From positions 29,451,315 through 29,515,314 of the forward strand of contig NC_133232.1 in assembly GCF_040436345.1 (NCBI RefSeq): a DNA stretch of 64,000 bases, read 5' to 3'. The notes beneath the pieces are model-generated. The model was not told the origin of the DNA, made no database searches, and worked only from the letters and a program-made list of their open reading frames with translations. The DNA comes from Pagrus major (taxonomy: Eukaryota; Chordata; Actinopteri; Spariformes; Sparidae). This document shows positions 11,652 through 17,600 of the stretch, one piece after another (the stretch's first letter is position 1; each line of letters begins with the position of its first letter). A program made the translations under genes and the position numbers.

Positions 11652-14600
11652 CTAGCATGAGCAGCTGCTCTCGGTGACAGTCATCTCTGGCTGTTTCTCC
11701 AATTTGATGTCGATCACTGAGAGGACTCGGTTAAGTAACATCATGGATGAATTTGCACATTTCGCTTCAGTATTTTCTGCAGCGCTGCCATCTCCTCAGT
11801 TAACACCGTCTCTTTTCTGAGGAGTAAACTAAGAGGCGTGTGCTACCAGCTTCCCACATTTCCTACAATTATAGCAATAAAGCCATGCCAGTAATAACTT
11901 AGCTGTGCCCATAATCATCCTACTAGAGGAGAAAAAATGATCTGACTTGTTTGTATTTCTATAAACCAATCACAATCATCTTGGGAGGTGCAAAGCCCAG
12001 GATGCAGTGACGCTGCCCCTGCAAAATAGTGTCTGCCAACAAGAAAGCCAACATCTGCCAGCTTGTTTCTGTTCATACCGTTAGCGACGAAGTTAGATGG
12101 CGAGCTCAGATGTTGTTCCTGTAGAGACTGTGGGGAGTTTGGCAACGCTAACATGCAGATAGCGAAAGGGGACGGAAATGCTGACTGAAATAGTCGGCCA
12201 ATGGCAGGCTGACACCCAACGTCTACATCCGGTGAGTTAATCTACTAACAACTAAGGTTGTCGCAACATTTAATAAAAATCTGACATTTAATGCCTTCAA
12301 AGCTGCGTCAATGTCTCCTCGTGTTATCAAATATCAATATTTTTCAAGGTACTGCATCAAAGTTACAAATTCCAGCATCGTGACAACATTACATAATAAT
12401 AACAATTCACATTAAAAGCATTTTTGAAAAGGATACTGTCCTCTTTGCTCTTCTCTGGTGTGCTGTCCATCCCAGGCAACGCAGCAGCAACACGACGGAA
12501 CAGCTAGAAGACAAAGTCAGACGAGTTTAAGTGTCGAACATGTTTGAAAAAATGGGACATAAAGTCAAATGCTGTCACATAGTGGTGGGTGATTTGGATA
12601 CAATTTTCTATCCCAGTATGTGTAATTTTACTGCCTAATTGATAGATATCATGGTATAGTTATTTTTCTGGAAATTCAATTGAGAAACTGTTTTTAAATC
12701 GCATTCATACAATGCAGTCATTTACATCCAAACACAACCAGAGACATTAAAAAGTACAGCTGCCTCACGTCACCCACCCCTACTGTAAAATAGGCTGCAC
12801 ACAATATAGACAGAAAGTGATCCAAGTTATAACTAATCCACCCGTACTAAAGATATTTGATTGAATAACAAGGCGAACACAAGAAGCAGTTGAAGCAGTA
12901 GAAAAACGTGTGATTATAACTCCCAGCATGAAAGTGAAGGTCGCCGTGCTATAACCTCCTCCGCTGAGCAAATCCATTACATTCACAGAAAACGCTTTGA
13001 AAGCTGCAGAAGTTTTTAGTGAATCACACAAAAAAGTACTCGAGCAAACAAACGCAGTGGCCGTAAACCTGTGCAGACCAAGTGAAGTAACACTGAAACA
13101 TCTAAAAGCAAAAGCCTGTGGAGGAAAAAAGACAACCAATACAGGAAGTACTGAGGGTACTAAGACATGTCATGATGCCAGAAGAGAGGGGGGGGAAAAG
13201 GAGGCGGAAAGAGTTAAGTGTAGACTTTAACAGCAGCATTAGCTGGACTACCTCGAGAGGGCAGATTCTCTACCTGTTTGACATTGTAGCCAGTCTTTGC
13301 GCTGGTTTCAATGAACATGACATTCAGTTCCTTAGCTCTCTGCTCGCCCTCCTCCGTGGTGATCTGTCTGCTCAGGTAGAAGCAGAGAGGGGGGGAAGAC
13401 GGACGAACAGACAGATGTGGAAAAGAAAACGCAAAAAGAGGACAGGCCAAAAGGAGAGGGAGGAGATGGAGAGAGAGAGAGAGAGAGAAACAAAGAGAGC
13501 TCAACACAGAATCTTGTTTTGAGTAAAAAAAAGAGAGAGAGAGGTTAGTTTAGTTATAACATACGCAGACACAGTGGAAGACAAAAGGGACAGAAGCTGC
13601 TGTGCTGAGTCAAAGATGAAGCAGCAGGAGAAAAAAAAAACGGGATCTCATTCACTCCACAGCCACTCTGATCCGTATAATGAACACATGGAGGGGTTTA
13701 TTAAATCCCAGATGGCTCAGGTCGGCCTCCCTGACCTAAAGGACATAACTACTATCAGGACTATTTGTCAGCATTAACACCGGCTTGTCGCTGGACACCA
13801 ACCTGTTTGACGTTATAGCCAGCCTTGGCACTGGTCTCTATGTACATCACATTGAGCTCACGAGCTTTCCTCTCTGCCGCCTCAACAGAAACTTGCCTGC
13901 CACGGTCCCACGGGAAGGGAGGGAGTGGGGGGGAGGATGGGAGTGGTGTGGAGTGTGGTGTCGAGGGGGAAACACAAAAAAAAAATTAAAATGACATGGA
14001 GAGAACAGAGCAGGAAAGGAAAACAAAAAATAAAAACATAAATATGACCAAATCATAAGAAATAAAGGTGCTTAAATCCTGAATAAAAAAGCTGGAGTGT
14101 GTAAAAAATACCAAACCAAGGGGATGATAAAAGTCAAAACTGGATGAAATGCACTGAAGGGAAGAAAAGTGGGATTTGGCAGAGAGCGTATCTACTTATA
14201 TACTATAAAATAGGACATTATATTAGCCGACTCTGCCCTGGACTGGGAGCTCAGAGCACCAGGGGAGTGTTGGTGTTTACTATCAGACCTCTTAGGGTAC
14301 AAAATGGCAAGGGGCTAGCTGGGTTAGCATGCTAACTTCAACAGATATAAGGTAAGACAGAACGTGTAAGATATTTCTGCAACACAGTACACAAACGTCA
14401 TGGATTAGTTAGTTAATTTCTAAATGTTTTAAACTGAATTTCTTACATCTGGCACCTTTCCTTGCTAGTTCCTCATTCACCACGTTGCTAGCATTGTTTT
14501 AGCTCAGCCGTCTAGTCGGCTATATCAGTATACTGGTCGGTTCACGTAACGCAGATCTGCTAATCAATGAGATTACATGTAGTTTGGACACAGAAGAGGA

Positions 14601-17600
14601 TATTAAACACTGAGGTCCTGACCTACATTCATCAGATCGCTCACGCCTACTTAATAACTGCACGCTACGCTAGCAGAATTATACATTTAGTCTATTTAAC
14701 AATCATCCTCCACACATCTCACACACTCACGTACCTTTTATCTGCCAAGTCTGTTTTGTTTCCAACAAGCATGATTATGACATCACTTCCTCTCTCTGTT
14801 CTGACATCATCAATCCACTTTGAGGTTTGCTGGAATGAATTTAGATCTGTGGATGAAAAAAAACAAACAACAACAACACAGAATTACTGTAAACGCAACC
14901 ACAAAAACACATAAAACATTTGTTCTCACTAAAGTTAAAAGTGCGCACAGGCAGTTATTGTTACAGAGGTAAGAGCATCCTGTGTGTAGTCGTTTTAGTA
15001 CGCAAGCATAATAAGAGGAGAAGCTTGAAGAGGGAAAATATCCTGAAGGTTATTAGCAGAAAGATGTGAAGTAGCAACTATGCCAAAGTTAACTGCGGTC
15101 GAATTTCTCTAGATCCTACAGAAAGGTTAGAATACAGCCCTGACTCACTGGTGATGTCATAAACAACCACGGCAATGGTAGAGTCACGGATGTAGCTGGG
15201 AATTAGGCTACGAAAACGCTCCTGTCCAGCAGTGTCCCATAGCTGGAGCCGGACCTGAGGATTGGAGCGGAAAAGGAGGTGGAGATAAGGAGGGGAAAGG
15301 CAGAACAAGAAAGTGGAGAATAGGACAGACATAAAGGAACTGCAAGCCAAGCAGCAGAGATGAAAATGGCCTTTTTTTTTTTTAAATGGAGAGATGAATC
15401 ATTCAAATGCGGCAGGGTCGGAGATGACCAGCGTGCAAAAAAACAAAAACCAAGACATGTGAAAGGAAACCCCGCTGAATCATTATTTAGTAGAACATTT
15501 CTTCAGATGTCACCTCACCGGGCAAGATTCTCTATTATTCCTTTCATCAGCCTCATATATAACAGACCCCCCTGGACACCCGCTGAGAGATGTATCACTA
15601 CAGCTGATGCACACAGCTGGAATACATCCTCATCATATTGTCCAGCGGGGTTTGCCAAGCTAGTGAAATTTTCTTTTTTTAAGCCCCTCCACATACTAAG
15701 CGGAGGACAAGGAGGTGAGGCGAGGCCATGATACCTACTGGCTATGTCATAAACCACCACAGCAGCGGCTGAGTCTCGGATGTAACTGGGGATGAGGCTG
15801 CGGAAACGCTCCTGTCCGGCTGTATCCCAGAGCTGCAGCCGAATCTGTGGCCAGCCGTGAAATGAAAGTGGAAAGGATGGGATGGGGGGGTGGGGGGCGT
15901 TTCATGATCCAGCCGGGGGATGGATGGAAGGAAAACAAAAACTTGATGTAACGATGGGAACTAATAACATGATCACACGTGTCACAAAATGAAAGTCTAG
16001 CTTAATGTAAACAAAACAATGTGAAATGGTGAAAGGAGAATAAACGGTGGCTACTACTAAAATGAGCTCATGCATGCTTTCAGCTTTTCTAGCAGTTTGA
16101 AAACTACACAAGTAGACTTTAATCACACAGGAGATATCTTCCTCTGACGTCACGCTCGGGGTGCGACGCTCAAATGCTGTTATCAAGAGGATATAGTGCT
16201 GCAAATCACACAGACAGCAGCAGCATCAGCGACTGAACAGACGGTGGACGGTGCGAGTATCAGGAGCATCCTCGGGTCATTCAACTCCTTCCTAGCTGAC
16301 ATTACCGTAAAAGAGAAGTAAAAACAAGCTCGCAATGTGACGTTGACTTTGTCGTCTCTTAGTAAGTAATGTTAGACGGCATTATACATACAGGAACATA
16401 TTTCTGTAACCTTCAATTAAAACCCCTTTTCTATCATATTGTGCAACATTATCAAATGGTAATCTTAGCTAGGAAGTAGTTGCATGCACCAGTAGCTAAT
16501 CGGTTATCCAACATGTTATTTTACTTTGAAATACTGTCTTTTTTCAATTGCTGATCGATCAGGAAGCGGTGAAATGATAACAACACGCGAGCTTCCCACC
16601 TCGAGTGTGATGTCAGAGGGAAATGGCCGCTGAGTGAATAATGAAAATTGCAATAAAATACACAGGGCTTACCGTGCGATCTTCTAGGTACATAGTTTTT
16701 GACAAAAAGTCAATGCCAATTGTTGCCTGCAAAACAATAATTGCATTAAAACATCGTTACAGGCAGAGAAAAGTCATTTGGTGAAGGCGTTCGGCCACAT
16801 TACACACTAAACATGATCTTTACTACTGAAGGGAAAGCACAGGTGGATCTAAAAACACCAACAATGGGTCTGAATACGCTCAATCTGTGTGTTGGTGTGT
16901 GTCTTTACCTGATAAGTGTTGTCGAAACTGTCATACATAAACCTGGTGATGAGAGACGTCTTCCCAACTGCACAAACAGACGACAGACATTTTTAATATT
17001 TGATCTTGTTATTCAAAAAGATCACAATCTACAGCACCCAATCATATCAAGTCTGATTTTGTATAATAGGTGGGGAGACAAAAAATCATTATGAGTCAGT
17101 GACAGCACATAGTGAGTACGTAGCTGCTCTCATTGATGCAATGTGGACTGCTGAACCCACACGCTGAGCTGGCACTTCTGGGTGGAGCCACAACATTTTG
17201 CAAAATGAAAATGGCTCAACTTCTCGCAATTTGTTCCGTGATGAGAGACTGTCACTGCGATATTAGACAGTCGCCCCTAAAACACAGTCACGCACAATAA
17301 TGGCAGTGCTAGACCACCGCAGGCTGACGTTAAATGGTCGGGGAAGAGGGGCCGACTGGTTTGGACCCACCGGCCGACGTGGCTCTGCAAGGTGCTGCTG
17401 TGGGAAGCTAACAGCTAGCTAGCTACATAGGAAAGTCAAAAAGCGCTACGCTGACATGTATGGATGGATTTAGTGCCCTTCACATACACAGCCCCGCTGT
17501 TTAGAGGCGACATAAGTCTTGACGGCCACGTTAACGCCTCATATACGTCCTGAATGCCAATATTAGCTAAAGTTACTGCTCGTGTATTTCAGCCTAGCAC

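Follow-up and report, generated by a model that had tools for sequence, protein, structure and literature searches.

A Rab6 gene in which exons 4 and 6 each occur twice raises the question of whether the members of each pair are chosen one at a time, and from when the second pair dates. Such a gene was identified in a 64,000-nucleotide stretch (the window) of the Pagrus major genome (786 Mb, 25 contigs), on contig NC_133232.1 (C18:29451315-29515314). Its coding part runs on the minus strand from 18214 to 11652 and forms an eight-exon gene with duplicate copies of exons 4 and 6. Rab6 is a well-studied Golgi switch, and what sets RAB6A apart from RAB6B is usually assigned to the two being different genes. 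With good confidence, the gene in the window (the C18 gene) can be regarded as a rab6a-type gene of a fish in which two exon pairs are each used in a mutually exclusive way, and the exon 6 pair most likely predates the RAB6A/RAB6B split.

Two duplicated exon pairs in the C18 gene

Exon 4 was present as 4x (15739..15844, 106 nt, like all exons of the gene on the minus strand) and 4y (15149..15254, 106 nt). The former is of the RAB6A type (IRL...DSAAA), with the residues of human RAB6A chain 4dkx_A, and the latter of the RAB6A' type (VRL...DSTIA; compare chains 3bbp_A and 2y8e_A). The two copies were identical at 85/106 nt and 31/35 residues, and their four residue differences (I/V, A/T, A/I, A/T) flank the WDTAGQE stretch on both sides. 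Exon 6 was present as 6x (13803..13896, 94 nt), which is of the RAB6A type, and 6y (13274..13367, 94 nt), which is RAB6B-like. Here 65/94 nt and 21/31 residues were identical, and the ten differences fall in the interval that separates NKTDL from ETSAK and at the residue directly after SAK. The remaining exons are exon 1 (18136..18214, 79 nt from the ATG, with donor gtaaga), exon 2 (16909..16967, 59 nt), exon 3 (16673..16726, 54 nt), exon 5 (14735..14846, 112 nt, with the NKTDL motif), exon 7 (12437..12503, 67 nt) and exon 8 (11652..11716, 65 nt to the stop, ending CSC-stop).

The initial annotation had described the two copies of each exon in a Rab6-type GTPase gene, and its coordinates, GT-AG borders and phases hold. 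AG precedes and GT follows every inner exon, all four duplicate copies included, and the phases match within the pairs. The protein is Rab6 sequence over its full length, with human RAB6A as the best PDB match of the 4y + 6x query (E 1.3e-119) and a Pfam Ras match for the 4y + 6y query. All four one-of-each combinations of exons 4 and 6 translate to a 211-residue protein ending CSC, as had been proposed.

The exon 4 pair was correctly likened to the known mammalian RAB6A/RAB6A' choice, with which it shares place and residue pattern (I..SAA against V..ST), the VRL...DST of 4y being that of chain 3bbp_A and of fly Rab6. In the available text of one array study, mouse Rab6 exons 4 and 5 were described as mutually exclusive and listed for quantitative reverse-transcription PCR (PMC2898759). 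Mammalian RAB6A differs from the C18 gene at exon 6, in that the six human RAB6A chains compared are all of the 6x type. RAB6B resembles exon 6y in sequence, but here this sequence is an alternative inside a rab6a-type gene. No exon 6 pair was described for Rab6, mammals included, in the available portions of the literature matches listed on Rab6 splicing and paralogues (supplements and annotation databases being outside this scope), and it is quite possible that exon 6 isoforms have been annotated before.

When both copies of exon 4 are included, a stop follows after 114 residues, and when neither is included, after 65. Joining of both exon 6 copies gives a stop after 179 residues, 125 nt upstream of the last junction, and omission of both moves the stop to the opening codon of exon 8, after 159 residues. 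By the usual rule a message decays when its premature stop lies far enough before the last junction, and a stop in the last exon escapes. The joined 6x-6y message should therefore decay, and the message without exon 6 should escape and yield a protein without the C-terminal tail. The earlier argument that the frame makes the copies exclusive thus stands in so far as both copies or neither break the frame, and is incomplete in so far as the skipping of both exon 6 copies would not be cleared by decay.

Two independent frame-locked pairs of alternative exons, as first suggested, are still the best reading of the locus, the exon 6 pair being kept also in a second, separate gene on C13. The likeness of exon 6y to RAB6B was not part of that suggestion. 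Each transcript would take one exon 4 (the RAB6A or the RAB6A' form) and one exon 6 (the RAB6A-type 6x or the RAB6B-like 6y), and frame breakage together with decay would clear the joined products. Mutually exclusive use in RNA, the combination of the two choices into four isoforms and a choice according to tissue are what we infer from the arrangement of the exons.

Age of the exon 6 pair and the RAB6A/RAB6B split

A search of the whole genome with the 6y peptide gave six matches at E <= 0.001, all within four Rab6 genes: two in the window (the 6x copy with E = 1.2e-7), two in the C13 gene (4.209-4.218 Mb), and a single one in a gene on C11 and in another on C21. Because all genome matches at this threshold fall in Rab6 genes, the resemblance between the exon 6 copies is not due to chance. 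No Rab6 relative was found among the contigs of other genomes searched. The C13 gene has a single exon 4 (type 4x) and two versions of exon 6, a 6x and a 6y of 94 nt; it thus keeps the exon 6 pair and not the exon 4 pair. Its 6x agrees with human RAB6A at 31/31 residues, and its 6x and 6y differ from each other at eight. At E <= 0.001 the C11 and C21 genes each show a single exon 4 (VRL...STV) and a single exon 6, which is of the 6y type, and no 6x exon was found in them. Exon 6 and the tail residues EG and LDK, which we take to be RAB6B-like, suggest the name rab6b-like for these two genes. An exon of the 4x type occurs in the C18 gene, the C13 gene and human RAB6A, and not in the C11 and C21 genes.

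Since the same exon 6 pair occurs in the C18 and C13 genes, the pair existed before those genes separated. The two genes are likely products of the teleost genome duplication; the synonymous distance of exon 6y between them, 1.16, resembles the 1.15 of this exon between C11 and C21. Exon 6y of C18 and C13 is identical at 29/31 residues, the changes numbering 11.0 over 18.7 synonymous sites and 2.0 over the 74.3 others (dN/dS 0.023), and exon 6x is identical at 26/31 residues, with saturated synonymous sites. Both exon 6 versions are thus under protein selection, because the proteins were conserved while synonymous sites and flanking introns diverged. The 6x copy of C18 (13803-13896 (-)) departs from that of C13 at five residues (V, A, A, R, Y), perhaps by specialisation, or by relaxed constraint after duplication.

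Relative to fly Rab6, five residues (I, T, Q, R and T) are common to the 6y exons, human RAB6B and the C11 exon. The C21 exon has four of the five (M at the second), whereas none occurs in 6x or in human RAB6A. Against chain 2e9s_A of human RAB6B, exon 6y shows 2/32 residue differences, and in a tree of exon 6 all 6y and rab6b-type exons formed one group with a bootstrap of 92. Four arrangements of this tree were compared. Placed before the RAB6A/RAB6B split, the duplication takes 18 steps; placed after the split, it takes 23 in either of two versions; and an independent duplication in each gene takes 28. By the approximately unbiased (AU) test only the arrangement with duplication before the split was kept (p 0.999, against 0.0017, 0.0014 and 0.00008), so that both the later and the independent duplications were rejected. 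The exon 6 pair would then predate the C18/C13 separation and most likely also the RAB6A/RAB6B split, after which RAB6B genes would have kept 6y alone and both rab6a-type genes of this fish 6x and 6y.

Several results count against this placement. The exon 6 tree is built on short data (9 sequences, 32 residues), and when left free it keeps the two 6y copies apart and joins C18 6y to the rab6b-type exons (bootstrap 56). Among the five shared residues, the T that corresponds to human position 139 is present in worm RAB-6.2 and yeast Ypt6 too, according to the excerpt available of a comparative study (PMC4758642). The rab6a label of the C18 gene would follow from its 4x exon type and a few tail residues, and the rest of the gene does not place it: exons 7 and 8 agree with human RAB6A at 31/43 residues in C18, 37/43 in C13 and 32/43 in C21. 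In a free tree of exons 1, 2, 3, 5, 7 and 8 no rab6a group emerged (supports 37 and 56). Among four set arrangements of the same six exons the grouping (C18,C13,RAB6A) was best, with none rejected (p-AU 0.28 to 0.73).

It could also be supposed that a rab6b gene was the source of exon 6y in rab6a, through exon copying or gene conversion at a time prior to the C18/C13 separation. Such a transfer would yield the same exon 6 tree, and the copied exon would fit, as the exon 6 phases are equal in all four Rab6 genes. On the other side, 6y is not unusually similar to the rab6b-like exons, with proportions of synonymous differences of 0.95, 0.72, 1.03 and 0.75 in four comparisons against 0.59 between the 6y exons of C18 and C13, and the copy would have had to arrive beside 6x in the correct phase. 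We consider this origin unlikely.

Duplication before the split leads to a further proposal, to which we incline only slightly: that two independent exclusive pairs were already present in the ancestral vertebrate Rab6 gene, and that the exon 6 alternatives were later divided between RAB6A and RAB6B, so that the ubiquitous/neural split would have begun as a splicing choice which is still made in the rab6a-type genes of fish. If so, this would be a clear case of an exon choice turned into two genes. If 6y is indeed chosen by splicing in a rab6a-type gene, part of the RAB6A/RAB6B difference would become testable by the swap of one exon, with the caveat that RAB6A and RAB6B differ outside exon 6 too. 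The available text of a study of tandem exons describes gene copies that keep different alternatives after duplication (CACNA1F/CACNA1S, the FYN family), with the difference that in this fish both alternatives persist in each of two genes (PMC9741552). The division of tandem exons between gene copies is thus already known, and the Rab6 exon 6 pair would be a new instance of it; the word Rab6 is absent from the main text of that paper (PMC9741552).

Transcript use and possible means of exclusion

Exon 6 extends from just after NKTDL, the guanine-binding NKxD motif, to a few residues past SAK, and by the general Ras fold it presumably takes in helix 4 and strand 6 as well as the guanine contact made by SAK. 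An effect of the exon 6 choice on the partners of Rab6 may be inferred from this position. As far as the sources were available, RAB6A is described as ubiquitous and RAB6B as mainly expressed in brain; in trout, rab6a belonged to the leading brain-specific splice changes (PMC8321248), it was differentially spliced in a damselfish during a heatwave (PMC8933327), and brain exons of both human RAB6A and human RAB6B appear in a list of developmental splicing (PMC9744839), the exon not being named in the available part of any of the three. Exon 6y would be the neural form, by analogy with the brain-expressed RAB6B.

The pair might not be strictly exclusive, with joining of 6x to 6y, or skipping, lowering the protein level through decay and with one copy dominant everywhere. 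The place of the stop in the joined product, 125 nt before the last junction, would suit such a role, as would the 5/31 residues by which the 6x copies of C18 and C13 differ. In human, joining reads were reported for 83 (22%) of 377 frame-incompatible clusters, in the text available (PMC5740500). But in both copies protein change is low while synonymous change is high or saturated, which implies translation of each, and this alternative is judged improbable. It is scarcely credible that either exon copy is a relic in decay or results from misassembly, given the open frames, the intact splice sites, the constraint and the second copy of the pair on another contig.

As to how mutually exclusive choice could be brought about, several candidates found no support. 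The paired exons are 484 nt (4x-4y) and 435 nt (6x-6y) apart in C18, and 6x and 6y are 860 nt apart in C13, so exclusion by a short intron is not supported. Nor is a mismatch of U2 and U12 sites, as the donors of the paired exons are not U12-like. Donor strength does not single out 6y: the 6y donor is gtagag in both C18 and C13 (7 and 6 of 11 consensus matches), and the other donors also have 6 or 7.

The zones free of AG before the acceptors gave a hint of another kind. Measured upstream of the acceptor with AGs within 12 nt ignored, they are 97 nt for 4x, 85 nt for 4y, 174 nt for 6x and 132 nt for 6y in C18, and 50 nt for 6x and 140 nt for 6y in C13. The median of these six currently paired exons is 114.5 nt, against 43 nt for 19 other acceptors of the four Rab6 genes (exon 8 of all four and C11 exons 2 and 3 left out; Mann-Whitney p 0.005), and zones of at least 100 nt were found in 3/6 paired exons against 1/19 others. 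The available text of a survey of human exons states that those with AG-free zones of at least 100 nt are more often alternative, and that known distant branch points accompany regulated, in some cases mutually exclusive, exons (PMC1431707). The long zones before most alternative Rab6 exons recall the exclusive exons with distant branch points of tropomyosin, alpha-actinin and OGDH, as described in the portions available (PMC1431707; PMC7969005). Rab6 differs from these in that the 6x-6y introns are 435 and 860 nt long and no steric block is expected, because a branch point 130 to 180 nt before 6y would stay far from the 6x donor. Instead, distant branch points with regulators bound between branch point and exon could be the means of exclusion.

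The 6x-6y intron of C18 (13368..13802 (-), 435 nt) is CU-rich, and its AG-free 132 nt before the 6y acceptor are counted disregarding an AG 3 nt upstream. A CU-rich stretch at this place would suit repression of the PTB type. CUCUCU occurs 13 times in this intron and not once in its C13 counterpart, and so is not conserved. The 6y acceptor itself (13368-13373 (-)) reads gagcag, a tandem of the NAGNAG type, and use of the upstream AG would add one residue (S before R).

Other results count against the proposed reading. The 6x zone of C13 is short, and the now-single 4x exon of C13, counted among the 19 others, has an AG-free zone of 157 nt. A blastn comparison of C18 with C13 over the three introns around the exon 6 pair revealed no conserved elements, the six matches at E <= 1 being 10 to 15 nt long. 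For both genes, a weak test that scores long gapped duplexes was applied to RNA docking among introns 5-6x, 6x-6y and 6y-7; it gave no excess pairing, with 8, 22, 16, 25, 7 and 30 of 30 shuffles at least as strong in the six comparisons.

The last intron and the neighbouring genes

The last intron of the C18 gene (11717..12436 (-)) has signals of the U12 type (gtatcctttt ... ttacttaac ... cag), when set against the U12 consensus. The last Rab6 intron begins with gtatcctt in all four Rab6 genes (11717-12436 (-), L009:9504 (+), L010:6267 (+), L007:3953 (-)), and cttaac was found shortly 5' of its acceptor in the three genes checked (C18, C13, C21). Judged by these signals, a minor-spliceosome (U12) last intron is kept in every Rab6 copy of the genome.

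Among the neighbours in the window, Pfam identified START and 7tm_1 domains and an arrestin match under its cut-off; beside the C13 gene it identified a mitochondrial carrier and a connexin. Neighbour genes of such kinds presumably lie near human RAB6A. As neighbours that might attest an origin of the C18 and C13 genes by genome duplication, the START-like and arrestin-like peptides of the window gave no such sign: no relative was found near the C13 gene, and the nearest arrestin-like match, although on C13, lies 15 Mb off. A tblastn search with 1,676 reading frames of the window against 62 kb around the C13 gene returned the Rab6 exons and a few short unnamed matches. Two short frames of the window (37264-37608 (+) and 43458-43711) match C13 around positions 4.195 and 4.198 Mb, next to the second rab6a-type gene, one of them with an internal stop, and may represent a shared mobile element or a neighbour gene. 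A single-exon frame of 381 codons from stop to stop (54371-55516 (+)) encodes a 7tm receptor (Pfam 7tm_1), which by eye we take to be P2Y-like.

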